Positions 9,064 through 36,320 of a stretch of DNA of 64,000 bases are shown here, one piece after another. Numbering within the stretch: the stretch's first letter is position 1; each line of letters starts with the position of its first letter. The stretch is from positions 62,001 through 126,000 of the forward strand of contig VXMF01000055.1 in the NCBI GenBank assembly GCA_009841225.1, written 5' to 3'. This DNA comes from Terriglobia bacterium. GTDB lineage: Bacteria > Acidobacteriota > Terriglobia > Bryobacterales > UBA6623. The position numbers and the translations under genes were made by a program. The notes beneath the pieces were generated by a model that ran no database searches, had not been told where the DNA came from, and saw nothing but the letters and a program-made list of their open reading frames with translations.

Positions 9064-9383
9064 TCTTGGACCTCCGTGACCCGCGTTAGGATAGCCCCTT
9101 ATCGCCAAGAATTCAAATCAGCTCGTCTCGATGACATCCCAAAGTCACAATATTCTGTGTGCGCGTTTCTGAATTGCACACTGTTTACACGTATCTGAAA
9201 TGCTGGCTGCACGCTGGCACTGGGCGAAGAAATATGACACGACGCATCGTAAGGGCCTCATGAAAACGTCTTCAGCGGAGATGTCAGCGGGCCAGCCCTA
9301 CGCGGCTGCCACCATGCGGGCCAGGCTCGCGGGTGAGGCCAAACGAGGCCTGCTACACTGCCCTCGACACCCGGGCTAGGATC
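9064..9383. other. Intergenic region between divergent genes
   Basis: 320 bases separating the TIGR03437 gene from the dehydrogenase operon. Apart from the Shine-Dalgarno of the minus-strand gene (9071-9075) I see no convincing promoter hexamers, RNA or ORF. Promoters for both directions are expected here. Confidence 0.4.
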
Positions 9384-11279: not shown

Positions 11280-12707
11280 ATGACCCGTTTGCCGCCTTGG
11301 GCAACCCGGGAAATGCCCGAGGCCCCACCTTTCTCGGTCCGGAACCTGTTCCGAATGATCGGCCCGGGCGCCATCCTGCTCGCCTCATCCATCGGAGGCG
11401 GTGAATGGCTGGTGGGACCGGCGATCAGCGTGCAGTACGGTCGGAACCTGCTATGGATCGCCACTGGCGCGATCCTGCTTCAGCTTCTCTTCAACCTGGA
11501 GGCAATCCGATACACCCTTTACACTGGCGAGCCGATTGTCACGGGCTTCATGCGCGTCCGGCCCGGACCGCGGTTCTGGGCCCCCGCGTACGCTCTCCTG
11601 TGCACTGTCCAACTGGGCCTCCCTGCGGTGGCTGCTGGGAGCGCAGCCACCGTGTTCGCTACCTTCGCGGGCCGGATGCCAGGCCCAGACGACACCGGCG
11701 AGCTGGCCTGGGCGACCTATGCGGTCATTGTTCTGGCTCTCGTACTGCTACTGTTCGGCGAGACAATCGAGCGCACCTTGGAGCGGGTGTCCTGGACCAT
11801 GGTGGCGTTCATATTCGGATTCCTGGCCTTCGTCAATGTGTTCTTTGTGCCGGCGCGCGACTGGATGTCCACCCTAACGGGCTTCTTCTCTGTCGGCTCG
11901 CTGCCGGACGGCGTCGACTTGGCTCTAGTGGGAGCGCTCGCGGCGTCGTCAGGTTCTGGAGGTTTCGGCAACCTCGCCATTACCAACTGGTTTCGCGACA
12001 AAGGCTTTGGAATGAGCGCTCACTCGGGCGCAATCGCTGCGGCCACCAGCAGCCGTGAGATCCGGTTGTCGGTGACCGGCAGCGTGTTCCGGACCAGCGA
12101 CGAGAACCTGCGCCGGTGGCATCGTTGGTGGAAGTATGTCGCGGCAGACCAGGTGTGGCTTTGGGCTGTCGGCTGCTTTGTCGGGATGTTCCTGAACGTG
12201 AACCTGGCGGCCAGCGTAATTCCCCACGGTACAGACTTGTCGCAACTGGGGGCGGGTGCGTATCAAGCGGACTACCTGGGCCGCAATCTCTGGCACGGAT
12301 TCTGGTACCTCGCCCTGCTCAATGGATTCTGGATCCTGTTCTCCACCCATCTCGGCAACACGGAGATCTTGGTCCGGATGCTGACCGACATTGGCTGGAC
12401 GGGAAGCCCGGCGATTCGTGGCCTCGTTCGGAACCATGCGCGGACGTTGTACTACTCGCTCTTTCTTGCGTACACCGTCTGGTCAGGCGTCGTCGTGCGC
12501 TGGGGCACGGCGATGGAAATGATGAAGTGGCTCGGAAACGCCGCGGGGTTCGTCCTCGCGGTCTCTAGCATCCACATCCTTGTCGTCAACACCAAGCTGC
12601 TGCCGCGCGAGCTGCAACCGCCGCTGTGGAGGCGGGTCGCGCTCGTGATCTGCTCGGCTGCTTACGGCGCGCTCTTCGTATCCGTGATTGCCAGCCTGGT
12701 CTCCTGA
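11280..12707 (+). CDS. Nramp-related integral membrane transporter, divergent
   Basis: 475 residues with about eleven hydrophobic segments. MIGPGAILLASSIGGGEWLV near the N-terminus aligns with transmembrane helix 1 of Nramp proteins, but the metal-binding DPGN is replaced by SIGGGEW, and no MPH motif is found where helix 6 should be. It therefore belongs to a branch of the Nramp/APC superfamily unlikely to move Mn or Fe; similar proteins are usually annotated simply as Nramp family. Its place 46 bases after the dehydrogenase-aldolase pair suggests uptake of their organic substrate (inference). Confidence 0.75.
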   Translation: MTRLPPWATREMPEAPPFSVRNLFRMIGPGAILLASSIGGGEWLVGPAISVQYGRNLLWIATGAILLQLLFNLEAIRYTLYTGEPIVTGFMRVRPGPRFWAPAYALLCTVQLGLPAVAAGSAATVFATFAGRMPGPDDTGELAWATYAVIVLALVLLLFGETIERTLERVSWTMVAFIFGFLAFVNVFFVPARDWMSTLTGFFSVGSLPDGVDLALVGALAASSGSGGFGNLAITNWFRDKGFGMSAHSGAIAAATSSREIRLSVTGSVFRTSDENLRRWHRWWKYVAADQVWLWAVGCFVGMFLNVNLAASVIPHGTDLSQLGAGAYQADYLGRNLWHGFWYLALLNGFWILFSTHLGNTEILVRMLTDIGWTGSPAIRGLVRNHARTLYYSLFLAYTVWSGVVVRWGTAMEMMKWLGNAAGFVLAVSSIHILVVNTKLLPRELQPPLWRRVALVICSAAYGALFVSVIASLVS

Positions 12708-13030: not shown

Positions 13031-14458
13031 TCAGGCAAGCACATGACGGATCACCCGGCCCTCGGTGTCGGTAAGCCTAAAGCGGCGGCCCTGGAACCGG
13101 TAGACCAGCTGTTCGTGATCTATCCCTAGCAGGTGCAGGATCGTTGCCTGCACGTCGTAGATCGAGACCGCACCCTCGGCGACATTGAACCCGTATTCGT
13201 CAGTAGAACCGTGGACATGACCCGGCTTGACGCCGGCACCCGCCATCCAGATTGAGAAGCACTTGCCGTGATGGTCGCGGCCATAGTCGTCTGGCTTCGG
13301 GTCACCTTGCGCGTAAGGCGTGCGACCAAACTCGCCTGCCCAAACGACGAGCGTGTCATCCAGCAAGCCCCTCTGCTTCAGGTCGTGCACTAGCGCCGCC
13401 GATGGCTGGTCCGTGTCCCGCGCCGAGACCGGGAGCCGCTTGGGCAACTCGCCGTGGTGGTCCCACCCGCGCTGATAGAGCTGGACGAAGCGCACATCGC
13501 GCTCCGCCAGCCGACGAGCGAGCAGGCAATTTGCCGCAAACGTGCCGGGCTTGCGCGAGTCGGGACCATAGAGCTTGTACGTTCCCTCAGTCTCGGCCGA
13601 GACATCCATCAGCTCGGGTACAGACGCCTGCATTCGATAGGCCATCTCGTATTGCTCGATCCGGGTCTCGATTTCCGGATCGCGGACCCGCCGGTACTGC
13701 AGCTTGTTCAGTCGGGCCGCTCCGTCCAACATCAGGCGGCGCTGATGCCGGGTCATGCCGGGCGGATCGTTCAGGTACAGCACCGGATCGCCGCTGGAGC
13801 GGAACTGCACTCCTTGGTGGCGGCTCGGCAGGAAGCCCGCGCCCCACAGGCGCGCCAGCAGGCCTTGCCCGCCCGGGCCCTCGCTGGCTACCGAGTGCAA
13901 CACCACGAAGGCTGGCAGGTCACGGTTCGAGCTGCCGAGACCGTAGTCCACCCACGCGCCCATGCTCGGCCGTCCCGGCAGCTGGCTGCCGGTCTGAAAG
14001 AACGTAATCGCAGGATCGTGATTGATCGCCTCGGTGTGCACCGAACGGATCAGGCAGATGTCGTCGGCAATTCCCGCGGTGTGTGGCAGCAGTTCGCTCA
14101 GAGAAAGCCCGCTCTGCCCATGTCGCTGGAACGCGTACTTCGACGGCATGGCTTGAAAGCGTGCCTGATGCGCAACCATCCCCGTCACGCGCTGCCCTTT
14201 GAACACCGATTCGGGGATATCCTCGCCGAAGCGATCCTGCAGAATCGGCTTGTGATCGAACAGGTCGAGATGCGACGGGCCGCCGGACTGGAACAGGAAG
14301 ATCACCCTCTTCGCCTTGGGCGCGAAGTTCGGAAACGCCGGAGCCGCCGGACTCTCCGCAGCGCCGAGCACATGCAGGCCGATCGCCCCCAGGCCATAGC
14401 CGGAGCGAACCAGCAGATCCCTGCGGGAAACAAGACCCGACTGTGAATTAGGTGTCAT
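13031..14458 (-). CDS. DUF1501 protein, pair 1 (Tat-exported, alkaline-phosphatase-like fold)
   Basis: 475 residues. The N-terminus has a twin-arginine type signal (VSRRDLLVRSGYGLGAIGL). The DUF1501 signature blocks are present: VIFLFQSGGPSHLDLFDHKP, IRSVHTEAINHDPAITFFQT, MGAWVDYGLGS, LLARRLAERDVRFVQL, WAGEFGRTP and GRDHHGKCFSIWMAGAG. The family is related to sulfatases and phosphatases but its reaction is not established. Its ATG overlaps the stop of the preceding DUF1549/DUF1553 gene by four bases, so the two products are made together and probably act together in the periplasm or at the surface. Confidence 0.9.
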   Translation of the reverse strand: MTPNSQSGLVSRRDLLVRSGYGLGAIGLHVLGAAESPAAPAFPNFAPKAKRVIFLFQSGGPSHLDLFDHKPILQDRFGEDIPESVFKGQRVTGMVAHQARFQAMPSKYAFQRHGQSGLSLSELLPHTAGIADDICLIRSVHTEAINHDPAITFFQTGSQLPGRPSMGAWVDYGLGSSNRDLPAFVVLHSVASEGPGGQGLLARLWGAGFLPSRHQGVQFRSSGDPVLYLNDPPGMTRHQRRLMLDGAARLNKLQYRRVRDPEIETRIEQYEMAYRMQASVPELMDVSAETEGTYKLYGPDSRKPGTFAANCLLARRLAERDVRFVQLYQRGWDHHGELPKRLPVSARDTDQPSAALVHDLKQRGLLDDTLVVWAGEFGRTPYAQGDPKPDDYGRDHHGKCFSIWMAGAGVKPGHVHGSTDEYGFNVAEGAVSIYDVQATILHLLGIDHEQLVYRFQGRRFRLTDTEGRVIRHVLA

Positions 14459-17400
14459 GACTTGGTAATCGCCTCGTCCGCACTCAGCACCATGCTAGCC
14501 ACCATGGCATAGGCCGCCAACTCCCGGACGTCGAGACCAGCAGTGGGAGCCGATGCGCCAACCGCCAGAAAGCCGCTTGGATCGGCATCCGCTGCGGACA
14601 ACGATTCAAGTATCGCTTGTAGTGTCTCGCCCAAGACGCTCTGTTCGTCGGCGGTTGGACTGCGGCCCACGACGAGTTCGAACAGATGCGCGAGGCGCTC
14701 AGATTGACTCGGGCCGGACTCCTGCAGCACGCGCTCGGCCAGCTTGCGAGATGCTTCCACGAACGTTGGATCGTTCATCAGTGTCAATGCCTGCAGCGGC
14801 GTGTTGGTGATCGACCTCTGCACCGTGCAGAACTCGCGGTCGGGCGCATCGAAAACCGTCATCGTAGGATGCGGCAGGGTACGCTTCCAGAACGTGTAGA
14901 GGCTGCGTCTGTACAGGCTCTCGCCTTCGTCCTGTTCCCACTTGGTGCCCGGATAGTCCGCACCGACCACCACGCCGTCATACAGCCCCTCGGGCTGGTA
15001 CGGACGCACGCTCGGCCCGCCGAGCTGGCCGCTCAGCAAGCCCGCGAGTTCTAGGGCCTGATCCCGGATGCTCTCGGCAGGCAGGCGAAAGCGCGGGCCG
15101 CGCGCCAACAGCCGATTCTCGGGATCCCTGTCGCGCAGGGACTGCTCCGCTGCCGAGTCTTGCCTGTACGTGGCCGACAGCACGATGTTTCTGATCAAAC
15201 GCTTTACGTCCCAGCCGGAAGCGGCGAAGTCTACCGCCAGCCAGTCCAGCAGTTCAGGATGGCTCGGTGTCTCTCCCTGCAGGCCAAAGTCTCCGCTGGT
15301 CTTGACAAGGCCCAAGCCGAAGATCTGCTGCCAGAATCGATTGACCACCACCCGAGCGGTCGTCGGATGCCGGCCCGAGGCCAGCCACATCGCCAGGCCC
15401 AGCCTGTTCTTGGGCGCCGCTTCGGGCCAGTGCCCCAGCAATGCCTCGGGCACGGCTGGGGGCACCGGCTCACCGGGACTGTCGTAGCGCCCGCGCATGA
15501 GCACATGCGTCTGACGCGCGGAGTCCATGTCTTGCATGACCATCGTGGTCGGCAGCGCACGCTCCAAGGCAAATAGCCGCTGGCGCGAGTCGGTCAGTTC
15601 GCTTGCGGGATTCAGCTTGCGATGGAGCCAGCGGCGTTCCAGTCGCGAGCCAGAGCGCGCCACGGCCCACGGAAGCGCCGCCGCTTCGAATACCTCAAGG
15701 ACCTCGTCTTCGGTCAAGGCCCGCCGCCACACAGCGACCTCGTCAAACTTCCCGGGAAACTCGCGCTTTGCGGGACTGTTTTCGCGACCGAGCCGGTACG
15801 GCGCCACGAAGTTAGCCGCCGACTGGGCGTCATCGTGCAAGACCTTGGTCCCGACCTCGCGGCCGTCAATATACAGACGGACCCAAGCGGCTTCGGCACG
15901 CATCGAACGCTTGCCCTCAGAGCCTTCGTAGACTGCCGCGACGTGATGCCACTGGTTCGGGCGCAGCGAAGCCCCGCTGCTGCGGACAGTGATCGAGTAC
16001 GAGGGGAAGCGCTTGCTCAGCCGCAATTCCACCTCGGTGCCCGTCGACCGCAGCCCGACGCCTCGGCCATACTCTGACGAAGCTGGGTCAGCGGAGTAGT
16101 CGATCGCAGAGAACAGCGGAGCATCGGAATGCTCTGCATCGGCGCGGAACCACATGCTTAGCGTGAACGCTCCGTGCTTTTCCAGCTTGATCTCCGTCTC
16201 CGGATCGATCTCCTTCGCACCACAGGCGCGCCCCGCGATGCCCGCATCAGGGCCGTCCTCGCAGCCAACGAAGAAGTCAGCGTTATACGGATACTCAGGG
16301 GCGGCCAGCGCAGCCAAGGCATCCGCGCTTGGCTCGAACCTTGCAGCGCTGACCTCGTCAGCTCGTTCCAACTGCTCGATGCGGGAGTGCAGGTCGACGA
16401 TCTGGGCTCGCTGCCCGGCAGTCGGGGCCGGGATCATGGGCACCGCGTTCGCTACACGGCCCGCCTCTCCCAGCTCTGGGACGTTGTCAAAGAACGCAAA
16501 CAGCCTGTAGTAGTCCGCCTGCGAGATCGGATCGAACTTGTGGTCGTGACAGCGGGCACACTCCACCGTCAGCCCCAGCCACGCCATGCCGAGCGTGCGC
16601 ACACGGTCGGCGACGTACTCAACGCGGTATTCCTCCTCGATGATGCCGCCCTCGGAGTTGATGACGTGGTTGCGATTGAAGCCCGTGGCGATGAGCTGGT
16701 CGATCGTCGGGCTGGGCAGCAGATCGCCAGCCAATTGCTCCGTAAGGAACCGGTCATAGGGCTGATTGCGGTTGAACGCCTCGATCACCCAATCGCGCCA
16801 ACGCCACATCGAACGTTCGGAGTCGTTATTGAACCCATGAGTATCGGCGTAGCGCGCCACATCCAGCCAATCCATCGTCATGCGCTCGCCGTAGCGCGGC
16901 GATGACAGAGCCTGGTCGGCCGCCGCGCCATAGGCGGCTTCGCCGTCGCGCTCGACGGCGCGCTCGAAAGCACGGACTTGCTCGATAGACGGCGGCAGGC
17001 CGGTCAAGTCGAGCATCATCCGGCGCAGCCACGCGTTCGGCGACGCCTCGGGCGACGGAGCTAGGCTCTCTTCATCCAAGCGCGCCAGCACGAACGAATC
17101 GAGCGGCTGGCGCAGCCAACCGGGTTCCGAAACATCTGGCAACGCCGGGCGCTCGGGCGGAACGAATGCCCAGTGGGTCGAATACTCGGCACCGGCCTCG
17201 ATCCACAGCCGCAAAACCTCGACCTCACCAGGCTCCAACGGCGCGTGACCGGAGTACGCCGGAGGCATTCGCCGGGCCGGATCCGCCGAGGCCACCCGCT
17301 GTATCAGCTCGCTGGCCGCTGGATCCCCGGGCGCGATCGGCACTCTGCCGGACATCCCCGGCACCACAGCCGAATCGCGCAAGTCCAGCCGAAGTCCAGC

Positions 17401-17562
17401 CTGCCGCTGAGCCGCGTCGGGGCCATGGCAGGCAAAGCAGCGGTCGGACAGCAGAGGTTGCACGTCTTGTCCGAAATCCACGGACGCGCCAATGCAAACG
17501 CCCGGCGCTGCGATGGCCAACCCGAGCAACCAAGCAAGGCGCGCTTGGATCGGCTTATGCAT
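14455..17562 (-). CDS. PSCyt1-DUF1549-LamG-DUF1553 haem protein, pair 1
   Basis: 1035 residues from the ATG at 17562, which starts a signal peptide (AWLLGLAIAAPGVCIGA); the frame is open further upstream without protein-like sequence. Order: PSCyt1 cytochrome domain with CFACH near 42, a WIEAGAEYSTHWAF linker, DUF1549 with a second haem motif CARCHDHKFDP, a LamG/concanavalin-like insert at about 430-650 (GAFTLSMWFRA, NQWHHVAAVYEG, FDEVAVWRRALTEDEV), then DUF1553 (VNRFWQQIFGLGLVKT, NTPLQALTLMNDPTF) ending in VLSADEAITKS. The insert implies carbohydrate or surface binding. Function of the family is unknown. It is first in a two-gene unit with DUF1501 (ATGA overlap) and divergent from the sialidase-like gene. 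Confidence 0.9.
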   Translation of the reverse strand: MHKPIQARLAWLLGLAIAAPGVCIGASVDFGQDVQPLLSDRCFACHGPDAAQRQAGLRLDLRDSAVVPGMSGRVPIAPGDPAASELIQRVASADPARRMPPAYSGHAPLEPGEVEVLRLWIEAGAEYSTHWAFVPPERPALPDVSEPGWLRQPLDSFVLARLDEESLAPSPEASPNAWLRRMMLDLTGLPPSIEQVRAFERAVERDGEAAYGAAADQALSSPRYGERMTMDWLDVARYADTHGFNNDSERSMWRWRDWVIEAFNRNQPYDRFLTEQLAGDLLPSPTIDQLIATGFNRNHVINSEGGIIEEEYRVEYVADRVRTLGMAWLGLTVECARCHDHKFDPISQADYYRLFAFFDNVPELGEAGRVANAVPMIPAPTAGQRAQIVDLHSRIEQLERADEVSAARFEPSADALAALAAPEYPYNADFFVGCEDGPDAGIAGRACGAKEIDPETEIKLEKHGAFTLSMWFRADAEHSDAPLFSAIDYSADPASSEYGRGVGLRSTGTEVELRLSKRFPSYSITVRSSGASLRPNQWHHVAAVYEGSEGKRSMRAEAAWVRLYIDGREVGTKVLHDDAQSAANFVAPYRLGRENSPAKREFPGKFDEVAVWRRALTEDEVLEVFEAAALPWAVARSGSRLERRWLHRKLNPASELTDSRQRLFALERALPTTMVMQDMDSARQTHVLMRGRYDSPGEPVPPAVPEALLGHWPEAAPKNRLGLAMWLASGRHPTTARVVVNRFWQQIFGLGLVKTSGDFGLQGETPSHPELLDWLAVDFAASGWDVKRLIRNIVLSATYRQDSAAEQSLRDRDPENRLLARGPRFRLPAESIRDQALELAGLLSGQLGGPSVRPYQPEGLYDGVVVGADYPGTKWEQDEGESLYRRSLYTFWKRTLPHPTMTVFDAPDREFCTVQRSITNTPLQALTLMNDPTFVEASRKLAERVLQESGPSQSERLAHLFELVVGRSPTADEQSVLGETLQAILESLSAADADPSGFLAVGASAPTAGLDVRELAAYAMVASMVLSADEAITKS

Positions 17563-17629
17563 ACGGGACAAGACGAGCCCCCCGCTGATCATTATGCCGA
17601 ATGTGCGTTGCGGCGAGTACAGTATTGCC

Positions 17630-18778
17630 ATGGATCGCAGACGCCGTGACCTACTCGCTGGCATTCCAGCGACCGCGGCCGCGTGGTTGCCGGGAACGAT
17701 TCTGGGAAGCCGGCAGCTGGCAAATGCCGCGACTCCGCGCCAGTCAACTAGCATCGTCACGCGCACAGCCATTCAAGGAGTCTGCGCATGGCCCAATCTT
17801 CAGATCCTGAACGAAGGCACCATACTTGCCCTGATCTTCAACCAGCCCTGCCACGGCTTGTGGGAGGGCGACTTGGACTGCTGGGCAAGCAAAGATGGAG
17901 GGCGAACATGGAGGTTTCGCAGCCGGCCCGCCGAGCACGAGCCAGGTACGAACCGGATGAACTGCGCGGCCGGGATCGCTGCCAACGGCGATCTCATCGT
18001 CCTGTGCAGTGGCTGGGCGGATCGCAATAGGCGCGGAGAGCCGGTCAAGCCTCATCTCCAGCCCTTGCGCCCGTGGGTTTGTAGGTCATCGGACCAAGGC
18101 AGGACATGGTCGGTGAGCACGGATTTCCCCGCCCCACCGGAGGACGGGATAGGAGCAGGCAACGAGTTCATCCCTTTTGGCAACATACGTGCGGCTGACG
18201 ACGGCTCGCTGTGCGTTGCGGCCTATCTGAGAAGGGAGCAGTCGCGCGCCTGTCACCTGCTCAGGAGCCCGGATGACGGGCGGACTTGGGGAGAGGCGGT
18301 GTCACTCCATCCTGGCGGCAACGAAACCGATATCTTGCACTTGGGCGGCGGGCGCTGGCTGGCGGCCGTCCGTGAGTTCGGGGAGAGGCGCGATGTCCAT
18401 CTCGAGCTGTTCTCGTCAAACGACGACGCCCGCACATGGAAGCGCCAACAACCCCTGACACTGCCGCTGCAGGTAACCGGCCACCTCACTCGACTGGCCG
18501 ACGGAAGAGTCCTGCTAAGCCACGGCAATCGATGCTGGAATAACTATGGGGTCGATGTCAGGCTGAGCGACGATGCCGGAGCGTCCTGGAGCCCGCCGTT
18601 CAGGATCGCGGACTGCCCGCGGCCCGACTGCGGCTACCCCAGCACCGTGCAAGTGGCGGATGGCAACACCGTGACGGCGTATTACACACAAGTCTCGGAT
18701 GACTACCATTACGAGATGCGGGTGGCGCACTGGAATCCATCTGCATTCACGGTCAACGGAACAGTACAAGGCGGCTAA
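17630..18778 (+). CDS. Exported sialidase/BNR-repeat family protein
   Basis: 382 residues from the ATG at 17630, beginning with a Tat-like signal (MDRRRRDLLAGIPATAAAWL). At least five Asp-box (BNR) repeats are visible: SKDGGRTWRF, SSDQGRTWSV, SPDDGRTWGE, SNDDARTWKR and SDDAGASWSP, which identify a six-bladed sialidase-type propeller. True sialidases also need an arginine triad and a Tyr/Glu pair, which I cannot confirm, so the protein may be a hydrolase on other glycans or a non-catalytic propeller. Its start region faces the DUF1553 gene, with 67 bases between the two starts. A Tat-type VOC protein follows after 6 bases, probably in the same operon. Confidence 0.8.
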   Translation: MDRRRRDLLAGIPATAAAWLPGTILGSRQLANAATPRQSTSIVTRTAIQGVCAWPNLQILNEGTILALIFNQPCHGLWEGDLDCWASKDGGRTWRFRSRPAEHEPGTNRMNCAAGIAANGDLIVLCSGWADRNRRGEPVKPHLQPLRPWVCRSSDQGRTWSVSTDFPAPPEDGIGAGNEFIPFGNIRAADDGSLCVAAYLRREQSRACHLLRSPDDGRTWGEAVSLHPGGNETDILHLGGGRWLAAVREFGERRDVHLELFSSNDDARTWKRQQPLTLPLQVTGHLTRLADGRVLLSHGNRCWNNYGVDVRLSDDAGASWSPPFRIADCPRPDCGYPSTVQVADGNTVTAYYTQVSDDYHYEMRVAHWNPSAFTVNGTVQGG

Positions 18779-19487: not shown

Positions 19488-22400
19488 CTACGGATCCTCC
19501 GGCGCAGCCTGTAGCTCGACCTGCATCAGCACCCACTTGTGCAACGTTGCGTATCCCGCATCCCCTGCCTCGTAGCGCACGCCTCCTTGATGCCCTTCTT
19601 CCTGCCCCGTCTGCACGTTCAGCGGCTTTCTCAGGACCAAGCTGCGCTCGGGATTGGCCAGATCCACTCTGGCCTGGAGCTTGCGATAGTTCTCGAGCAA
19701 CTCGGCGGCCTCGATGTGCCCGGCATCGTCCGGTGGGTTCAGGTACAGCGTGGGCACCCGTCCCGGAACACCGTGGCACGAGATGCAGGCCCGATTGTCG
19801 CGCTCGCTGATCCGGTTCATTTCGGCGAAGACATGGTCTCGGAAATGCAAGATGTCCTCGACGAACATGTCCGACGCATCCAGGCGTCGCCCGCCGTTGA
19901 GATCCTGTGCCTCGATTAGCCTCTGCAATTCCTTGCCATATCGCTCGTCGTCGCTGGCAAGCAGATTCTGAAGGCGCGTGCGGATTACGGCCACCGGTTC
20001 GTTCTCAACATGTGCGCCGATCGCCTTGCGCACTTCGGGATTCCGCCGCAGCGCGGGCGAGGCCGCCAGCTTGGCGGCAAGTGCGCGGGTCTCTTCCGAG
20101 GATTCCGACGAAAACCAGCGCACGAACATCTCGACTACCTGACGCTTGGCTGCCGCGATCGGGTCGATTACTTCGGTCCCGCTGTCGTCCTTGGTGAACT
20201 GGGACTTCGCTCCCTCCCAAGGCGTCAGCTTGAGGTAGTCCAATCCGAATTTGAATTCCGGCTCGGCCTCCGGGTTGGTCCCCAGCATCCTCACCGTCAG
20301 GAGCGCTTGCTCGCCCGCGAGGTCAAAGACCCCCATCCGCATCGGCCCGGTGGAAGTGACTTCCTCGCGATAGTAGTCGGCTTGGTCCAGCACGAGTTCG
20401 CCGTCAAACTCAATGCGGACAATGCCATGGGACGCACCGTGCAGGATCGCCCCGAGCAATTCGTACCTGCCCGGCTGCGGCACCGGCACCGAGAACGAAA
20501 TGTGCGCCCCGACCTTTCCCTCTTCCCAGATCAGAGCATTGTTGTTGCTGGCGACACCGCCTGGAATGGCCAGGTCGGTGGTACGACCGAACGTCAGCTC
20601 GGCCACTTCCAAGTCTTCGGCCTCAACTGCCCCCGCAACCGCCTCGGCCACTGTCTCGCCGCCCTCCCTGAAAGCGAGCATCCACTCGGTGGAATCAAGC
20701 CAGAGCCGCGGATCGGCTGACAGGTGGCTGAACGCTTGCTTGCGATGCAGGCTGCGGTTCTCGCCCAGAATGCGGGCGACCAACGGGGCGTAGGGAGATT
20801 CTTCCAGGGTCGGCCCCTCAGTCGGGGCGGGCTTTCCCAGCAGTACGCTCGCCGGCGTTGCTGTAGCGGCACGGGTTGGACTCAACTCTAGCAGCAGGCG
20901 GTAGAATTCTGCCTCTTCGGCCTCGCTGAGACCATCGAAGTTCCACTTCACCCTGGCCAAGAAGCCCGCCAAGGCATCTGCGTCGTCTTCCCGGTCGTTG
21001 TCCGCGTATAACCGCAGTACTTCCAGCAGTGGTGCCAGGGCACCGCGGCGGGCTGGCAGAGAAAGCTCGCCGGGGTTTGCCAGGGCTCGCGCGGCGATCG
21101 CCACGATGCCTGGATCAGCGGTTTGCAACAAGGACAGAATCGTGTCCTGCAGGGGCTTGTGGGTAACGCCGCGAGCCCCTTCAAGGGCAATCGAGCGCCA
21201 CGGCACGTCTGCCTGAGCCTCGTCCTGATACACAGCCAGCACCGCCTTGCCGAAAAGTTCGGTCGCGCCCGGGGTGCTGTAAGCGAATTGGCCAGGGCTC
21301 TGCTGGTTGGCGCGTTCCATGTAGTGGGACGCGGCCATGGCGGTGAGCCGGCGGTCGAGTAGTCGCCTGCGCTCTGGCTGAGCGGTCTCTCGCAATTCGA
21401 GCAATTCGCGGAACAGCGATGCGAGTTCCGGATATTGCTGCGCCGCGAACTGCTCGCGAGTGATGTTGTTGACCTGGCCGTTGACGATGAACAGCGAAAT
21501 CGTCGAGTAGCGCAGCGCCATGTCGACGTGTGCTTCGGGCTCCTCGCGCAACAGCGCATCGATCCACGCTTGGTTGACGGGCTCGCGCATGGGCGGATTC
21601 CAGACCCACCAGTGCCACGCTGCCTTGAAGGCGTAAGCCCTCACGCCGGGATGGGGGTCGACCATCCCGGCGGTAAGGATGCCCGCCAGTTCAGACAGGT
21701 CAACCTCCACACTACTGCCGGGCAAATGTGCTCGCGTGACCAACGCATGCATGACCGATTGGCGCGTGCGGTCGGTCCCCTTCCGAAAGGCCTCGAAGAG
21801 TTCACTCCAACCGCCACCGTCCAGAAGCAGTTGTCGTAGCGACCAGAACGCGGCTTCGCGGCAGCTCTTGACCGGATCGTCGAAATGCTCGATCAGCGTG
21901 GACACCGCATCGTGCGCCATTGCACCACCGAGAGCTAAGAGTCCGTAGTATCTAACCTGTGGGTAGGGACTGCTCGCCAACTCCTTGAACAATTCCGTGT
22001 GCTCGGGGCTTGCCGCAGCCTGGGCGGCCCGTGCCTTGGCAAGTGACTCTAGGAAACCGTCCTCAGGGGCCAGTGCAAACTCGTGCTTGGCGTCAGCCTC
22101 GGGGGCGGGATGGAGACGGCTCAGGGCCCTGATGACATATGCGCTGGTAACGAATCCCGTCGCAGCCGCTGCATTCCACAGTCCGTACGGGTACTGGTTC
22201 TCCAGAAGCCATCGCACACCCCGGCCGACCACAGGATCCTCGGCCGTATAGCCGGCGGCCTCGAGCGCTATCAATGCCACCGCCGTGGCGGCGGGATAGC
22301 TGTGGTCTTCAGGACGCAGCCATTCGCCGTTCTCGCCAGCCTTGCCGGGCTCGAAGCCCCAGCCCCCGTCCTCCCGCTGGAGGGCGAGGATCCGGCCCAG

Positions 22401-24281
22401 ATCGGTGGCTGCCCTGGCTCGCAGGTCGGCATCCAACTTCTCCGCCTCCGCAATCCGACGCGGTGAGTTGGTCAGCTTGCGTACCTGCTCGACATAGTCG
22501 GCCGGCCAGATGCGGTGCACGAACTCGACTCGGTGGCCATAGTCGTCGGTGACCCGGATATCGTCCTCGGTGGCGAGAATCTTCCTCCCTTTCTCTTCGA
22601 TACCGAAGAAGTAGCGCGGCTCGCCGGTCACGCGCCACGCGCGCTCCAAGACCTCGGCCCCAAACTTGAAGACCACGTTGGGCCCGAAGTTCGAGCCTCG
22701 CCCTGCCGCATTGATGCCTTTCGGATCGGCAGTCTGGAGCACATAGTTCGCGGTGCGCTGCTGCCACTGCGCATGCACCCGCTTGGGGTTGTGGGTGCGC
22801 TCGTGCAAGACGATGTTGCGCCCGGCAACTCGGGTGCCGGCCGGCCCGTCACCCAGATCGTTCGGCGCGACGCTGGTATTGACCGCCGCATCCTTGAGTT
22901 CGTTGGTCAGGCGGAGCGACTCGTACATCGTGTTGACCAAGCGCCGGTAGTTTTGCTCGACCCCGTGCGGGCCGTACCCGTTGCGAAACGCATCCGCCAC
23001 ACCCCAGACGCCGCTCTGGGTGTGGCAGCTCATGCAGTTCTCGCCAAACAGCGCTGTCGCATCGCGCACTCGGCGGTGTAGCGCTATGTTGCGTGGGCGG
23101 TGGATGAGCCAAGCATCGATCTCGGCAAGGTGGTAGTACACACCCTGTTGCACGGCCTCGACCGGATCGGAATACGGTGCCGGGTCGAAAACGCGCACCT
23201 GCAGCTCGTAGTGCGGCTGGTTTGCCTCCACGCGCAGGTAATAAGTCTGTCCCGGCTCAAGCTGGCGGGTCACGAATGTCCGAAATGAGCGATCTTGCTG
23301 GTGCGCCCGCTCGTTGATCGCCCGGCCCTCTTCGTACGTGTAGACGGGCACCGGGCCATCGATGACCGTGGCGGACGGGTGCACGTACGGAATGGGATTG
23401 AAGTTGGAGAAGTCGCGGCTATTGGGTACGTCGCGCTCGCGCAGCTCCTCCGCGCTCGGACGGCCCTGCTTGTAGAAGCGAATCCGAGCGCTGACTACGG
23501 GCTCGACGATCTGGAGGTTGGCGCTGAGGTACTTGGGGGTGGTTCCGTTGTAGTCGATGCGGTACCAGTCATCGGGGGTGTTGCCGGTGCGGGTGTTGTT
23601 GTAGTACTCGACATCATCGGCACCGCCGACGACGTACACAGTCCCAGTCTCGTCCGCCTCGCTGAGCCGAAGCAGCGTGGCCTGTTCGGGTGCGTTGTTC
23701 GGTTCCGCTTCCAAGATCAAGGACTCCGACGAGAGGGCGGATATCGGCCGGATCGCGATCGCCAAAGCGACACTATCCACGGCAGGAGTGACGGTTGGTA
23801 GCGGCGTAGCCAGCGGTGCCAGGCCCGTATCGTGCGGGATTGGCCCAAGGGGTTGCTCGCGATCCAGCATGGGCTCGATGCGGATCGAATATCTGCCCGA
23901 GACCGGGGCGCGATAGACCAAATGTAGGTCGGGATCAAGGGCATGCAGCACCTTGGACCAACTTGTAGTGGCGATAACGCCGGAATCGGCCCGATCGCCC
24001 GTGAAACCGGAATCTGGCAGATCCGGGCCGGACCAATGGACTTCGATCCGAGCGTTCGGCGGCAGGACGGACGGCTCTACCAGTTGCAGCGACACGTCGA
24101 ATGCCCTTCCCGCCTCGAGGGTCCACTCCTCGCTCCACGGTGGGCCAACGGAGACGGTCCGGGAATAGCCTGAGCCCTCCGTCAGGGATGACGCTGGAGT
24201 CGGGGCAAGCAACGGCGGGACCGCGCACACAAGTAGCGGCAGCCCCCAGCGAAGAAACGGATTGAATAGAGTACGGTCCAC
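19488..24281 (-). CDS. Giant dihaem protein with cyclase-like, HEAT-like and carbohydrate-binding-like regions
   Basis: About 1597 residues from a GTG at 24281; a TTG at 24338 would add 19. The GTG is preferred because a hydrophobic export signal (FLRWGLPLLVCAVPPLL) follows and a purine-rich GAGGCGGAAGG precedes it. Order: beta-rich N-terminal region including a PPC-like EAEPNNAPEQA segment (near 190), haem motif CMSCH near 416, a terpenoid-cyclase/prenyltransferase-like alpha-alpha repeat at about 630-730 (LQREDGGWGFEP, WLLENQYPYGLWN), HEAT-like helices at about 770-1210, a beta-sandwich resembling a carbohydrate-binding module (GRYELLGAILHG, VRIEFDGELVLDQ), and a C-terminal cytochrome with CISCH near 1499. 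I know no named family for the whole. Likely periplasmic or surface located. Confidence 0.75.
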   Translation of the reverse strand: MDRTLFNPFLRWGLPLLVCAVPPLLAPTPASSLTEGSGYSRTVSVGPPWSEEWTLEAGRAFDVSLQLVEPSVLPPNARIEVHWSGPDLPDSGFTGDRADSGVIATTSWSKVLHALDPDLHLVYRAPVSGRYSIRIEPMLDREQPLGPIPHDTGLAPLATPLPTVTPAVDSVALAIAIRPISALSSESLILEAEPNNAPEQATLLRLSEADETGTVYVVGGADDVEYYNNTRTGNTPDDWYRIDYNGTTPKYLSANLQIVEPVVSARIRFYKQGRPSAEELRERDVPNSRDFSNFNPIPYVHPSATVIDGPVPVYTYEEGRAINERAHQQDRSFRTFVTRQLEPGQTYYLRVEANQPHYELQVRVFDPAPYSDPVEAVQQGVYYHLAEIDAWLIHRPRNIALHRRVRDATALFGENCMSCHTQSGVWGVADAFRNGYGPHGVEQNYRRLVNTMYESLRLTNELKDAAVNTSVAPNDLGDGPAGTRVAGRNIVLHERTHNPKRVHAQWQQRTANYVLQTADPKGINAAGRGSNFGPNVVFKFGAEVLERAWRVTGEPRYFFGIEEKGRKILATEDDIRVTDDYGHRVEFVHRIWPADYVEQVRKLTNSPRRIAEAEKLDADLRARAATDLGRILALQREDGGWGFEPGKAGENGEWLRPEDHSYPAATAVALIALEAAGYTAEDPVVGRGVRWLLENQYPYGLWNAAAATGFVTSAYVIRALSRLHPAPEADAKHEFALAPEDGFLESLAKARAAQAAASPEHTELFKELASSPYPQVRYYGLLALGGAMAHDAVSTLIEHFDDPVKSCREAAFWSLRQLLLDGGGWSELFEAFRKGTDRTRQSVMHALVTRAHLPGSSVEVDLSELAGILTAGMVDPHPGVRAYAFKAAWHWWVWNPPMREPVNQAWIDALLREEPEAHVDMALRYSTISLFIVNGQVNNITREQFAAQQYPELASLFRELLELRETAQPERRRLLDRRLTAMAASHYMERANQQSPGQFAYSTPGATELFGKAVLAVYQDEAQADVPWRSIALEGARGVTHKPLQDTILSLLQTADPGIVAIAARALANPGELSLPARRGALAPLLEVLRLYADNDREDDADALAGFLARVKWNFDGLSEAEEAEFYRLLLELSPTRAATATPASVLLGKPAPTEGPTLEESPYAPLVARILGENRSLHRKQAFSHLSADPRLWLDSTEWMLAFREGGETVAEAVAGAVEAEDLEVAELTFGRTTDLAIPGGVASNNNALIWEEGKVGAHISFSVPVPQPGRYELLGAILHGASHGIVRIEFDGELVLDQADYYREEVTSTGPMRMGVFDLAGEQALLTVRMLGTNPEAEPEFKFGLDYLKLTPWEGAKSQFTKDDSGTEVIDPIAAAKRQVVEMFVRWFSSESSEETRALAAKLAASPALRRNPEVRKAIGAHVENEPVAVIRTRLQNLLASDDERYGKELQRLIEAQDLNGGRRLDASDMFVEDILHFRDHVFAEMNRISERDNRACISCHGVPGRVPTLYLNPPDDAGHIEAAELLENYRKLQARVDLANPERSLVLRKPLNVQTGQEEGHQGGVRYEAGDAGYATLHKWVLMQVELQAAPEDP

Positions 24282-24730
24282 GGCCTTCCGCCTCAATACT
24301 ATCGAAGTCCCGCTCTCGGAAGAGCAGTCGTCGCACAATCACCGCACGGTGGTGTATACGGAAGAGTCTGGGGACGAGGACCAGACAGGACCTGAAGGTT
24401 GGGGCTGCCGAGGGCGCGGGTGCGCAACCGTAACCTGGTTTCTGTCTAGCCTCGATAGTAAGAGCGCCCACTGGTGCCGAAGGAGAATTGATCGCTATCT
24501 AGTGGCAGAATCCATCACCAGACTACGGAGCTCAAACGCACGGCTCCAGCTAGCGATCGGCCGATGACCAGACTCTTGTCTTACAGAAATTCCGCTTAAA
24601 CTTTCATTTGGACGGTATCAAAACTTTCATTTGGCCGCACTTTGGGGTTGCGATCAGACGGTGATTGGAACGCGATTCTACCGATGACCGAGCGGTCCGC
24701 TCATGCGATCGATATGCCACACTAACCGTC
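24282..24730. other. Intergenic region between divergent genes, contains a 23-bp-period repeat
   Basis: 449 bases upstream of both the giant dihaem gene and the TIM-barrel gene. Promoters in both directions are expected but none is clear. The only structured element is the repeat pair at 24598-24634, described separately. No gene is recognised. Confidence 0.4.
24598..24634 (-). repeat. Pair of 14-bp direct repeats with 23-bp period
   Basis: CCAAATGAAAGTTT (minus strand) occurs perfectly at 24611-24598 and 24634-24621, exactly 23 bases apart. Each copy holds an ATG. The period and the CAAATG core match the tandem array in front of the DUF4143 ATPase gene near 58.2 kb, but no such gene lies here. 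Confidence 0.7.
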
Positions 24731-28902: not shown

Positions 28903-31845
28903 TCAATCCACGTATAGGAACTCATTCGAGCTGATCAACATATGCGCAAGGCTCTCGACAGACTCTGCGAGTGCCTGTTCGATAGGTGTATCAGCGCGGA
29001 CATACAGCGTCTGCTGACTCTCCAGATGATCCCGAGCTAGGGCAAGCTCTTCGCTGCTGGGTTCCCTTGTGAGGATTGCACTGTACGCCGCGCGGGCAAG
29101 CGTCTCGAGACCGGTCGGGCGTCCGATGTGGGAGTCTATGATCCGCCTCGTGACCGCCGCGGCATTCTCCATAACAAAGTTACTATTTAACATGGTTAGC
29201 GATTGCAGCGGTGTCGCGGATGGCGCGCGCCGGGTGCAAGTGGTGTCGATATTCGGAAAGTCGAACGTACCCATGAACGTCAGCGACCATGAGCGGCGAG
29301 CCGTCAGGTAGACGCTGCGCCGGAGCGCCCCCTCCGTGACGGCAACTTGCAAACCGTCAGGGTGGTGGTCCAACTCGACGGGCGGTCCTCCTAGAGAGTC
29401 GTCAAGCTTGCCGCTCACGGCGAGAATCGAGTCGCGAAGCGCCTCGGCCTCCAGCCTTCGCAACGGCATCCTCCAAAGCAACCGATTGTCGGGATCCTCG
29501 ATGGCGGCCCGCTCGCCAGCTGAGTTGGCGCCGCGGCTCGATGACTGCCTATAGGCGGTCGAGAGCATGATTAACTTGTGCAGGCGCTTGATCTTCCACC
29601 CGTGCTTGACGAAATCGACAGCCAGCCAGTCCAGCAGTTCCGGATGAGAGGGTGGCGATCCGTTGGAGCCGAAGTTGTCTGGTGTCGCCACGATGCCAGT
29701 GCCAAAATGATGCTGCCAGATTCGGTTCACGATGACCCTAGCCGTGAGAGGATGATCGGGATCGGTCAACCACTCGGCCAGCGCAAGACGGTACCCCGTG
29801 GTCTCCCCTGCCCGGTTCGGCGAAGGCGTTGCGAGACACGTCTCATCGTCACTGCAGAGGACTGACAGAAAGCCCGGTTTGACGGTCGGTCCGGGCGACT
29901 CGACGCTGCCGCGCTGGAGAAGCCGGATGGTTGGGAGCGACTCGCCGTCCCAAAGGGCTTGAATGGGTTCCAGTTCGGTCCGGTTGCTGGTCCATTCCCC
30001 GATTTCCTGACGAATCCGTCCTAAGCGCTCCTTGTCTTCAGGGGATGCCTCGCCTAGGATCTCTTCGTCGCTGATCTCGACTGTCGAGCCGTACTTCTTG
30101 ACAAGGTCCGTTTGGGCCTCGTCGCGATCTTTCGCATCAGCGGCGAATGCGATTCGGAAGTCCTGCCGATCCGCGCTCGGCACTGCCTGAATCTTGGACT
30201 CAAACAGCGCGTCTCGGTATGGCTGGCTGATTTCGTCAATCTGACCCATCATGCCTTTGACCTTGGCGTCGATGGCGCTGTTGCGTTTGTCGATGTGTTC
30301 CTTCTCGGCCGGGGAAACCGTGTACAGCAGGCGGTTCTTCGGCTGAATCCAGTCTGACGGGTTATAGGCCGCTGAGAGCAGGGCCAAGAAGCGGTAGTAG
30401 TCTCGCTGGGGGATTGGATCGTACTTGTGGCTATGACAGCGTGCGCACGAGAGAGTCAGTCCGACCGCGCTGCGAGACACTTTATCGATGAGTGCAAACA
30501 GTGTGTCGTAGCGGTCGGCAGGCCGGTCCGAGATGTCCTCGTCGGTCGCATCGAGAACCGTTCGCAAGTAGCTGGTCGCGATCAGTGTCTCGAGCATCTC
30601 AGGCGAGAACTGCTCGGCATTGCGCCAATCGTGGAGTTCGTCTCCAGCTAGCTGCTCGATGAGAAAGCGGTCCCAAGGCTTATCCGCGTTGAACGAGTCA
30701 ATGACATAGTCCCTGTACCGCCACATCCCGGGTGACAAGCTGACCTGGTCAGCCCGGTAGTCCTTGCCCTTGGTATCGACGTACCCGGCCGCGTCAAGCC
30801 AGAAACGTCCCCAGCGTTGACCGTAGAGAGGAGACTCCAGCAATCGGTCGAGCAGTCTCGCGTAGGCGTCGGGCCGCTCATCCGCAAGAAACTCTGCCGC
30901 CTGCTCGGGAGTTGGGGGCAGGCCCCAGAGATTGAAGTAGGCGCGTCGCAGGAGCGTCTGTCGCGGTGCCTCAGTTGAGTAGGTGAGTCCGCGCTGCTCG
31001 AGTTCTGCGAGCAGGAAGGCATCGACGGGCGTTCGGACTGCGCTGGCCCCGTCGACTCTTGGCGGGGCTGATGCGAGTGGTGCCTGGAAGGCCCAGTACT
31101 GACGGTCGGATGCAGTCACAGGTGGTGCTTCCGATTCGGTGAAGGCACGGTCGAGCGGGTTTCCGACATCGACGTAGTCGGCGAACTCGCCTTCGTCGAT
31201 CCAATCTCGTATGAGTTCGATCTCGGCGTCGTTCAAGGGCGCACTCGCTCCCTCAGGAGGCATCACTCCATTCACCAATTGGCGGACGAGGACGCTCTTT
31301 TCCGAGAAGCCCTCAAGCACAACCGGGCCGTTCTGGCCGCCGCGCAGGGTCGAGGCCAGCGTATTCAGGTCCAGACCGGATTGAGGGGAGTTCCCGCCGT
31401 GGCAGGAGACGCAGCGCTCGTTCAGCAGCGGTTGAATTTCCCGTTCGAATCGAGCGATTTGCAGTCGCGCCTGCTCGGGCAGGCCATCGCCCCGCTCTGA
31501 GCGAGCGCCTGCTTCGATCCAACGTCGGATCGTTTCGACGTTAGCCTCCGGAACTTGGCTCTTGAAGGCCTTCGGAGGCATCTTGCCTTGCGAAACTTTC
31601 TGGTAGAGCAGGCTCTCGTCGGGAGATCCCCTCCTGACCACAGGGCCATTGAATCCTCCGCGCAAGACAGTTCGAGCCGTCCGAAGATCGACACCTTGTT
31701 CCGGGGAGCTCTTGCCGTGACACGTCAGGCAGTACGTTGAGAGGATCGGTTGGACGTCTTTCTCGAAGATCGGAACATCATCCGCTGTGGCTGCGCCGCT
31801 TGTGGCGGCCGCGGCCAGAAGGCTGACCAGCACACGAGCATTCAT
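28903..31845 (-). CDS. PSCyt1(x2)-DUF1549-DUF1553 haem protein, pair 2
   Basis: 980 residues with a signal peptide (VLVSLLAAAATSGAATA). Two tandem PSCyt1 domains carry CLTCHGKSSPEQG and CVSCHGGNSPQSG, each followed by a LRGGxNGPVV block; DUF1549 follows with a third haem motif, CARCHSHKYDP; DUF1553 ends the protein (VNRIWQQHFGTGIVATPDNF, ATPLQSLTMLNSNFV). There is no inserted LamG domain. The ATG overlaps the stop of the upstream DUF1501 gene by four bases (31842-31845), so in this pair the DUF1501 gene comes first. Function unknown; exported and probably haem-bearing. Confidence 0.9.
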   Translation of the reverse strand: MNARVLVSLLAAAATSGAATADDVPIFEKDVQPILSTYCLTCHGKSSPEQGVDLRTARTVLRGGFNGPVVRRGSPDESLLYQKVSQGKMPPKAFKSQVPEANVETIRRWIEAGARSERGDGLPEQARLQIARFEREIQPLLNERCVSCHGGNSPQSGLDLNTLASTLRGGQNGPVVLEGFSEKSVLVRQLVNGVMPPEGASAPLNDAEIELIRDWIDEGEFADYVDVGNPLDRAFTESEAPPVTASDRQYWAFQAPLASAPPRVDGASAVRTPVDAFLLAELEQRGLTYSTEAPRQTLLRRAYFNLWGLPPTPEQAAEFLADERPDAYARLLDRLLESPLYGQRWGRFWLDAAGYVDTKGKDYRADQVSLSPGMWRYRDYVIDSFNADKPWDRFLIEQLAGDELHDWRNAEQFSPEMLETLIATSYLRTVLDATDEDISDRPADRYDTLFALIDKVSRSAVGLTLSCARCHSHKYDPIPQRDYYRFLALLSAAYNPSDWIQPKNRLLYTVSPAEKEHIDKRNSAIDAKVKGMMGQIDEISQPYRDALFESKIQAVPSADRQDFRIAFAADAKDRDEAQTDLVKKYGSTVEISDEEILGEASPEDKERLGRIRQEIGEWTSNRTELEPIQALWDGESLPTIRLLQRGSVESPGPTVKPGFLSVLCSDDETCLATPSPNRAGETTGYRLALAEWLTDPDHPLTARVIVNRIWQHHFGTGIVATPDNFGSNGSPPSHPELLDWLAVDFVKHGWKIKRLHKLIMLSTAYRQSSSRGANSAGERAAIEDPDNRLLWRMPLRRLEAEALRDSILAVSGKLDDSLGGPPVELDHHPDGLQVAVTEGALRRSVYLTARRSWSLTFMGTFDFPNIDTTCTRRAPSATPLQSLTMLNSNFVMENAAAVTRRIIDSHIGRPTGLETLARAAYSAILTREPSSEELALARDHLESQQTLYVRADTPIEQALAESVESLAHMLISSNEFLYVD

Positions 31846-33284
31846 GCCGCATGAACCTCGTTGTCCAACAAGTCCCCTATAACTCGGGCTCCTGTGACAG
31901 TGACGTCTGCGGGAGTTTCCAACCGCCCTGCGTGCGGGTAGGTCGTCCTGCGATGGTCGAGACCAAGTTGGTGCAATACCGTCGCATGCATCTCGGGGAC
32001 GCTAACGCGATCAACGACGGACCGATAGCCGAAGTCATCCGTCTGGCCATAGATCCGGCCGGGCTTGAAGCCGCCGCCGGCGAACCAGATGGTGAACGCA
32101 TTGCGGTTGTGATCACGGCCGTCGTCGCGCTGCGTAGTTGGCAAGCGGCCGAACTCGCCAGCCCACATCACGATGGTTTCGTCGAGCATGCCCCTTGCGT
32201 CGAGGTCCTTTACGAGCGCAGCGGCCCCCTGATCGGTCTCGGCTGCGATCTTGAGCATCCGCTCCTCAAGCTTGTCGTGGTGGTCCCAAGGCTGGCCCGG
32301 GCTGGTCGTCACTTGAACGAACCGCACCCCGGCCTCGACGAGTCTCCTCGCCATCAGGCAGCGCAGCCCGTATGGACCGCGAATCTCATCGTCTACCCCA
32401 TACAGCTTCTTGGTTTCCGGCGATTCGCCTGCTATGTCGAGGACATCCATGGCCTCGACCTGCATCCGGGCAGCCAGCTCGAAATTCCTGATGCGAGACT
32501 CGAGTTCGGTCTCGCCGGGCCGAGCGTCAAGGTGAAGCTTGTTGATGCGGGCCAAGTATTCCAAGCCCTGTTCCTGCACGCCTGGCGGCTTCTGCTCGGC
32601 TGGCTTGAGGTGGTGGACGGGCGATCCGCTCATGTTGAACTCGATGCCCTGATAGAGCGCAGGCAAGAAGCCGTTGGCCCAAAGCTGCCTGCCCCCGATC
32701 GTGTACCCCTTTGGATCGCGCAAGACCACGTACGCGGGCAGGTTCTGGTTTTCCGTGCCGAGTGCGTAGCTGATCCAGGCGCCCATGGCCGGTCGACCCG
32801 CGAAGATCTTGCAGGTCAGCAGCATGTTCAAGCCCTCGGAGTGGTTGTTGTGCTCGGTGTGCATCGAGCGGATGAAACAGAGCTTGTCAACGATTTCGGC
32901 TTGGTGCGGCAAGGCTTCTGAAATGTCCATCCCGCACTCCCCCCGCTGTTGAAATTCGAAGGGCGTAGGCAGCAATGTGTTTGTGTTTCCGGGCTGGTGG
33001 ATTTCAACTCCGTCTGGGTGGGGCTGGCCGGCGTATTTGGCGAGCATGGGCTTCGGGTCGAACAGATCCATCTGGCTGGGACCGCCGTTCTGGACCAGTT
33101 GGATGACGGACTTTGCCCGACCGGGAAAGTGGCCCTTGCGGGCGCGCAGGTCGTTGTAGATCGTCACCGGCGCGGCTTCGGAAGTGCGAGCCAACAGGTG
33201 CGAGAGCGCAATTTGGCCGAAGCCCAGTGAACTCAGTCCAAGGAGTTCACGCCGCGTCATTGGCAGCCCGGCCCAATTGAGCAT
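31842..33284 (-). CDS. DUF1501 protein, pair 2
   Basis: 480 residues, or 472 if translation begins at the ATG at 33260 which starts the Tat-like MTRRELLGLSSLGFG. Family blocks are complete: VIQLVQNGGPSQMDLFDPKP, IRSMHTEHNNHSEGLNML, MGAWISYALGT, MARRLVEAGVRFVQV, WAGEFGRLPTTQ and GRDHNRNAFTIWFAGGG. It is the upstream partner of the double-cytochrome DUF1549/DUF1553 gene, coupled by an ATGA overlap. Neither start has a good Shine-Dalgarno. The gene is divergent from the vapB module. Confidence 0.9.
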   Translation of the reverse strand: MLNWAGLPMTRRELLGLSSLGFGQIALSHLLARTSEAAPVTIYNDLRARKGHFPGRAKSVIQLVQNGGPSQMDLFDPKPMLAKYAGQPHPDGVEIHQPGNTNTLLPTPFEFQQRGECGMDISEALPHQAEIVDKLCFIRSMHTEHNNHSEGLNMLLTCKIFAGRPAMGAWISYALGTENQNLPAYVVLRDPKGYTIGGRQLWANGFLPALYQGIEFNMSGSPVHHLKPAEQKPPGVQEQGLEYLARINKLHLDARPGETELESRIRNFELAARMQVEAMDVLDIAGESPETKKLYGVDDEIRGPYGLRCLMARRLVEAGVRFVQVTTSPGQPWDHHDKLEERMLKIAAETDQGAAALVKDLDARGMLDETIVMWAGEFGRLPTTQRDDGRDHNRNAFTIWFAGGGFKPGRIYGQTDDFGYRSVVDRVSVPEMHATVLHQLGLDHRRTTYPHAGRLETPADVTVTGARVIGDLLDNEVHAA

Positions 33285-33940: not shown

Positions 33941-34308
33941 GCGATTCGCCGTGACGCGCTTATCATAGCAGGCCCCCCCGAGCGAGCGTGGCTCACCCCA
34001 CGGGACCGCTAACGCAGGGGCACATACTTCGCCGACTTGGAGCCATCAGGCAAGGGCCCGTGAGCGGCGGCTTCACTGGGGTACCATGGGTTGCGGTCGT
34101 TGGGCACAGCGGACACTTTCTACATTGCCGTCATCGTGCTGCTGCCAGAAGAAGCCCTGATTCGACCACCTGTATTGGCCGCGTGGAGCATTGTGATTCC
34201 AGCGAATGCACCGAACTCACGCATTTCTGCGAACGGCACGGCCGGCGTGCGTGGTTCGACAACCATCGGCAAAAAGCCAACCAGAAAATAGGAGCGGGAG
34301 ACTCTCAA
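33941..34308. other. Intergenic region upstream of the sulfatase
   Basis: 368 bases between the 5' end of the tRNA-Ser and the sulfatase start. The sulfatase frame is open back to 33988 but lacks a signal sequence or homology there. Promoters for the tRNA (minus) and the sulfatase (plus) must lie here; none is clear-cut. GGAG occurs twice at 34291-34300, serving as Shine-Dalgarno. Confidence 0.4.
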
Positions 34309-36114: not shown

Positions 36115-36320
36115 GCGGCTCGCGTCGGGCGCTGTTGGTATGCGGCCGAATCGCCGGCCCATATTGACTGGGACGAGCGATTCGTCGTACAGTGCGATTG
36201 ACCCGACCGCGCAACCGCCCGACCAGGAGACGCCCCGCTCAGGCCTGTGCTCATGCAGTGCAAGGCTCGATCAGTCTGGCCCCTGCGGTACGCGGAGGAC
36301 GATTTCGCAGGGCCCGCCCG

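Follow-up and report, generated by a model that had tools for sequence, protein, structure and literature searches.

What is the very large protein encoded on the reverse strand of this window (the whole 64,000-nucleotide stretch analysed, from a Bryobacterales [Acidobacteriota] MAG), in which two haem motifs are joined to cyclase-like, HEAT-like, and carbohydrate-binding-like parts, and what might such a protein do? The open frame runs from a TTG at 24338 to a stop at 19488 and spans 1616 codons; residues are numbered here from that TTG, and subtracting 19 gives the numbering from a GTG at 24281. The GTG is plausibly the true start because it is preceded by a purine-rich GAGGCGG and because a normal Sec-type signal peptide begins there.

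19488..24338, (-) strand: whole open reading frame, 1616 aa from TTG 24338, or 1597 aa from the preferred GTG 24281
24186..24281, (-) strand: Sec signal peptide predicted at residues 20-51, VDRTLFNPFLRWGLPLLVCAVPPLLAPTPASS, as read from the sequence

There are exactly two CxxCH motifs in the frame, CMSCH (residues 435-439) and CISCH (residues 1518-1522), and the same is true of all 42 homologues collected. Their retention, together with full-length homologues of 46 to 95% identity in every genus genome searched and a second full-length copy in the same genome (G000:C45:47831-52540, 53% identical), excludes a chance open frame. Sequence comparison therefore indicates that 19488-24338 encodes a real, strongly conserved, exported protein of Acidobacteriota. 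An earlier note on this DNA had described an exported dihaem protein of about 1,600 residues, and both elements hold, in that two conserved CxxCH motifs lie in an exported chain, as in a dihaem c-type cytochrome, with haem presumably attached at each.

The gene is solitary, and its neighbourhoods differ between loci. Among the predicted genes in neighbourhoods of about 20 kb at 36 loci we found no partner conserved across groups, and profiles of the N-terminal, PPC, toroid, QW, CBM, and C-terminal parts match no neighbourhood protein outside the family. The window copy adjoins sugar isomerase-like and GFO/IDH oxidoreductase genes, an arrangement seen in its closest relatives only, and the paralogue adjoins AMP-ligase and band-7 genes. 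Elsewhere in the window are two long ORFs with no Pfam match (6349-9108 on the (-) strand, 919 aa, and 11280-12707 on the (+) strand, 475 aa) and a 964-aa outer-membrane beta-barrel protein (OMP_b-brl_4; 51275-54169, (-) strand).

Two copies per genome are typical of the window genus: the window-type gene is present in all 10 other genomes searched and the paralogue in at least nine of them, being split across two contigs in one. Close relatives carry the names Bryobacterales or Terriglobia, and other genera of the same family have one, two, or no copies. Forms without the carbohydrate-binding insert occur in the Bryobacteraceae (∼1320 aa) and in an acidobacterial family outside the class (f72; ∼1500 aa). 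The only match outside Acidobacteriota, among 392 Planctomycetota genomes, is in one Gemmataceae MAG, and it has the insert; the GC content of its contig (65.4%, with 62.9 to 66.5% in the other contigs) is consistent with this not being contamination, but is not decisive. A more distant Bryobacterales set (1010 to 1412 aa, 21 to 25% identity) follows the same plan (beta head, then CxxCH, toroid, HEAT, and a C-terminal CxxCH), and its profile matches the window protein over the haem region (3e-15) and the QW region (2e-10). The family is rare, as the conserved haem-toroid region was found in only four of 297 sampled Acidobacteriota genomes, including that of the window. In the tree, the window, paralogue, f72, and Bryobacteraceae groups each form one side of a fully supported branch, and the insert-bearing forms group together (94%), which fits a single gain of the insert. 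Found in the window family and the Gemmataceae MAG but not in the Bryobacteraceae and f72 forms, the carbohydrate-binding module is probably a late addition. By these comparisons, the architecture is that of a small Acidobacteriota superfamily with shorter members that lack the carbohydrate-binding part. It was seen in no characterised protein among PDB sequences or in the literature searched, in line with the earlier note, but extends beyond the window protein. We also note a remnant of the N-terminal part of a family member, interrupted by three TGA stops, whose genome also has two intact copies (locus L072, ∼9360-10005; G004:C7:142359-143004), and two distant members less than 10 kb apart at another locus (L067, 4953-8390 and 14367-17399), with a TPR protein and a large ORF between them.

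Behind the signal peptide, the order from the N to the C terminus is beta domain, PPC-like sandwich, toroid, HEAT solenoid, binding module, and cytochrome-like tail. The AlphaFold (AF2) models used alignments of 22 rows, comprising the window protein and relatives. The first model (residues 52-1060) has a mean pLDDT of 79 and a pTM of 0.85, and the second, covering the C-terminal part, has a pTM of 0.48, which is low for the relative placement of the two haems.

23727..24185, (-) strand: N-terminal beta domain, residues 52-204 (AF2 secondary structure, conservation)
23175..23726, (-) strand: PPC-like beta-sandwich, residues 205-388 (EAEPNN...GGADD...DDWYR...; structure match)
22101..23174, (-) strand: alpha/alpha toroid with the haem-1 site inside, residues 389-746 (structure matches, Pfam)
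20628..22100, (-) strand: HEAT-type helical solenoid, residues 747-1237 (Pfam HEAT_2/HEAT, structure match)
20208..20627, (-) strand: carbohydrate-binding-like beta-sandwich, residues ∼1238-1377 (sequence and structure matches)
19878..20207, (-) strand: helical linker that follows the insert, residues 1378-1487 (AF2 secondary structure)
19491..19877, (-) strand: C-terminal cytochrome-like haem module, residues 1488-1616 (model, profiles, conservation)

The beta-rich head seen at first reading contains a sandwich of the PPC/collagen-binding type, with residues 205-388 matching the ColG collagen-binding domain (5iku, Z 11.3, rmsd 2.4 over 104; also 4hpk and 1nqd). The beta domain ahead of it (residues 52-204) has no Pfam match, and its K129, D135, and D137 are kept in 32 of 32 aligned members. 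HEAT repeats are recognised both by profile (Pfam HEAT_2 at 770-835, E 1.5e-6) and by fold (alphaRep and the PP2A A subunit, Z ∼16), and Pfam likewise bears out the cyclase-like part, where SQHop_cyclase_C matches residues 650-734 at 3e-9, above the Pfam cut-off and over the QW part.

Is the toroid then a cyclase? It has the alpha/alpha toroid fold and two QW motifs.

22359..22379, (-) strand: QW motif 1, QREDGGW, residues 654-660
22176..22196, (-) strand: QW motif 2, QYPYGLW, residues 715-721

Its closest structural matches are drimenyl-PP synthase (8zg1, Z 11.6, rmsd 3.1 over 266 residues, 389-743), squalene-hopene cyclase (3sqc, Z 10.4, rmsd 3.8 over 279), complement C5 (5hcd, Z 10.2), and GH105 (4xuv, Z 10.1, rmsd 3.6 over 279), Z values that are moderate for a helical fold and and the cyclase comparison is backed by sequence. 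That backing lies over the QW part, where squalene-hopene cyclase is matched among PDB sequences at 7e-14 and the NCBIfam model TIGR01507 at 4e-11, the latter scoring 42.1 bits where the cut-off is 431.1, so that full-length membership is not indicated. The catalytic residues are another matter. DxDD is absent from the toroids of all 42 members; apart from C435 and C438, which belong to the haem motif, the toroid has no cysteine, and this leaves neither the zinc cysteine of prenyltransferase beta subunits nor a thioester CGEQ (C826 sits in SCRE, in the HEAT part). With no DxDD and no zinc or thioester cysteine, only the fold and the two QW motifs remain and cyclase chemistry appears unlikely, which upholds the doubt already voiced in the earlier note as to whether this is a true cyclase.

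The toroid instead contains the first haem motif.

23022..23036, (-) strand: haem-1 motif CMSCH, residues 435-439, closing the loop that joins toroid helices 1 and 2

The models place CMSCH within the toroid and not in a separate cytochrome domain ahead of it, because the cyclase structure match starts at residue 389, 46 residues before CMSCH, and a toroid helix (392-413) also precedes the motif. The earlier note had set CMSCH in front of the cyclase-like section and pictured the haems at opposite ends; neither placement is supported, as the model and the structure match build the haem-1 site into the toroid. Conservation is concentrated in the same place. In 25 near members 193 positions are invariant; the toroid accounts for 86 of these and the C-terminal haem module for 27, and the most conserved stretches of the toroid are loops 1, 3, and 5 (414-435, 474-499, and 536-552), with 29 of 65 positions invariant versus 49 of 213 in the toroid helices (p 0.0014). 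Loop 1 ends at CMSCH, and since these loops alternate with short ones, all three should lie on one face of the barrel. The pLDDT falls below 50 at 426-436, 487-502, and 538-550, the haem-bearing loops, as would be expected of haem-binding loops folded without their haem, the model having been built without it. Apart from H439, we find no His or Met in the toroid that is invariant throughout the superfamily.

The second haem motif lies in the tail.

19773..19787, (-) strand: haem-2 motif CISCH, residues 1518-1522
19581..19592, (-) strand: HQGG, residues 1583-1586, with invariant H1583 a candidate sixth ligand of haem 2

In 32 of 32 aligned members the tail has F1499, D1514, CxxCH, S1566, L1569, K1571-P, H1583, G1585-G-x-R, and W1602, so H1583 is the one obvious candidate for the sixth ligand of haem 2. 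The invariance of H1583, set against the lack of a comparable toroid residue, suggests that haem 2 is a relay and haem 1 more open, and makes haem 1 the better candidate for a working haem. A profile of the module from near members matches DUF1592/1588 and DUF1549/1553 proteins in their N-terminal haem segments (E 1e-7 to 4e-5), and a broader profile matches five DUF1553 proteins in the same genome. The tail is thus the haem module common to Planctomycete-type PSCyt/PSD proteins, and no PSCyt2/PSCyt3 or PSD1-5 Pfam domain is present in the toroid-protein chain; among PDB sequences, the best match of the module is FoxE (E 0.02).

Planctomycete-like bacteria have PSCyt-type haem proteins in extraordinary numbers. 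The window itself has three DUF1549-DUF1553 and DUF1501 gene pairs in its 64 kb (13031-17772, 28903-33284, and 36192-40474, with the DUF1501 assignment of 39026-40474 coming from ORF clustering and not from Pfam), and a 388-aa ORF elsewhere in the genome (G000:C8:433-1137) has the C-terminal haem module in two tandem copies. The genome has 63 DUF1553 loci, and proximity to DUF1553/DUF1501 genes was therefore dropped as evidence of a functional link. A sulfatase gene (33988-36114) lies beside one DUF1553/DUF1501 pair, an arrangement described in Verrucomicrobia. In freshwater Verrucomicrobia, PSCyt proteins carry carbohydrate-binding modules and are encoded near sulfatases; by the authors' account, the functions of such proteins are not known at all (PMC5615132).

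The part first described as a carbohydrate-binding-like beta-sandwich can now be assigned more closely, as it resembles XBM/CBM84 modules in sequence and fold, matching MiXBM (7ehg, sequence E 2.9e-9) and Paenibacillus xanthan lyase (PXL, 6f2p; sequence 1.1e-6, Z 13.9, rmsd 3.3 over 135). The xanthan-binding modules of PL8 xanthan lyases have been placed in CBM84, with one further unclassified xanthan-binding module in PXL (PMC10881899). We infer that the insert binds glycan. Overall, the protein appears, from its sequence and models, to carry one haem in a toroid and another in its cytochrome-like tail, the two being separated by a polysaccharide-binding module.

Our preferred reading, for which we judge the case to be evenly poised, is a secreted dihaem redox protein with a catalytic haem pocket in the toroid, a relay haem at the C terminus, a HEAT scaffold, and a glycan tether. 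In such a c-type protein, periplasmic or on the surface, the toroid would be a class II terpene-cyclase fold whose acid motif was lost or never present, with haem c covalently bound at the mouth of the cavity and walled by the most conserved loops. This pocket, of a size to take a substrate, would be the functional site, at which a small substrate or the end of a saccharide is oxidised or reduced, while the PSCyt-type haem would hand electrons on to other periplasmic cytochromes or receive them from these. The HEAT solenoid may serve as a scaffold, either holding the haems in position or offering a docking site for a partner; in the window clade the inserted xanthan-lyase-type module would tether the protein to acidic polysaccharide. 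The fuller proposition, that a cyclase toroid has become a haem c enzyme with a substrate-accessible haem in its cavity and a PSCyt-type relay, aimed by the insert at extracellular polysaccharide, is more tentative, and we regard it as possible but somewhat doubtful.

The strongest competing explanation, itself rather unlikely, is that the protein is purely an electron-transfer scaffold, with both haems low-spin carriers and the toroid a structural alpha-alpha barrel without catalysis, carrying electrons between periplasmic partners or along the surface. M471 and H522 are invariant in the near family and either could cap haem 1, making it a plain electron carrier; the toroid has no known catalytic motif, and the large HEAT and beta scaffolds would suit docking. 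However, distant members have neither of these candidate caps, and the densest conservation falls in polar loops (NTSxAPNDLGDGPAG and GINAAGxGSNFG), which is more than a structural barrel needs. Improbable, in our view, is a hydrolase or lyase-like toroid that acts on polysaccharide under the direction of the xanthan-type module, the haems being accessory. Both the GH105 structure match and the likeness of the insert to xanthan-lyase modules point that way, but the toroid resembles cyclases in sequence and not glycosidases or lyases, and the two haem motifs occur in every member, even those without the binding module. A true extracytoplasmic terpenoid/prenyl cyclase or transferase is largely refuted and scarcely credible, for all the toroid fold, QW motifs, and SQHop_cyclase_C match, given the missing DxDD and zinc-site cysteine, the export signal, and the low NCBIfam score (42 against 431).

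Returning to the preferred reading of a secreted dihaem redox protein, every single part is of a known kind and it is the use of the toroid that is possibly new. A search of PDB sequences and of the literature for cytochromes joined to cyclase, toroid, or HEAT elements found no matching architecture, in agreement with the earlier note, which did not recognise it as a described family, and the conserved haem-toroid region matches PDB sequences only at CxxCH itself (E ∼1). If the toroid does hold haem, the terpene-cyclase fold would here be put to an unexpected use. The combination of the same haem module with a well-understood cavity fold and a recognisable glycan-binding module also makes this a concrete, expressible test protein, bearing on the suspected role of PSCyt proteins in extracellular carbohydrate oxidation.

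Among known systems, class II terpene cyclases (squalene-hopene cyclase and drimenyl-diphosphate synthase) have the alpha/alpha toroid fold and QW motifs in common with the window protein, which differs in lacking DxDD, in being exported, in having a predicted haem c site in the toroid, and in the beta, HEAT, and cytochrome parts that flank it. The thioester domain of complement C3/C5 is alike in setting a toroid beside beta domains in an exported protein, whereas the window protein has no CGEQ and has putative haem sites. The PPC and ColG collagen-binding domains share the fold of residues 205-388, but the window sandwich has a long insertion (∼280-335), is internal, lies ahead of the toroid, and has no Pfam PPC match. 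Residues ∼1238-1377 are like the modules of PL8 xanthan lyases (MiXBM 7ehg and PXL 6f2p) in sequence and fold, but here form a lineage-specific insert inside a haem protein, with glycan binding predicted. The PSCyt/PSD proteins (DUF1549-DUF1553 and DUF1587-1592-1595-1588-1585) are, like the toroid protein, c-type haem proteins that the same bacteria export, and the C-terminal haem module (CxxCH, S-x2-L-x-KP, HxGGxR, and W) is common to both; in the window protein, however, this module is C-terminal and joined to a toroid and a HEAT solenoid, in place of any PSCyt2/3 or PSD1-5 domain.
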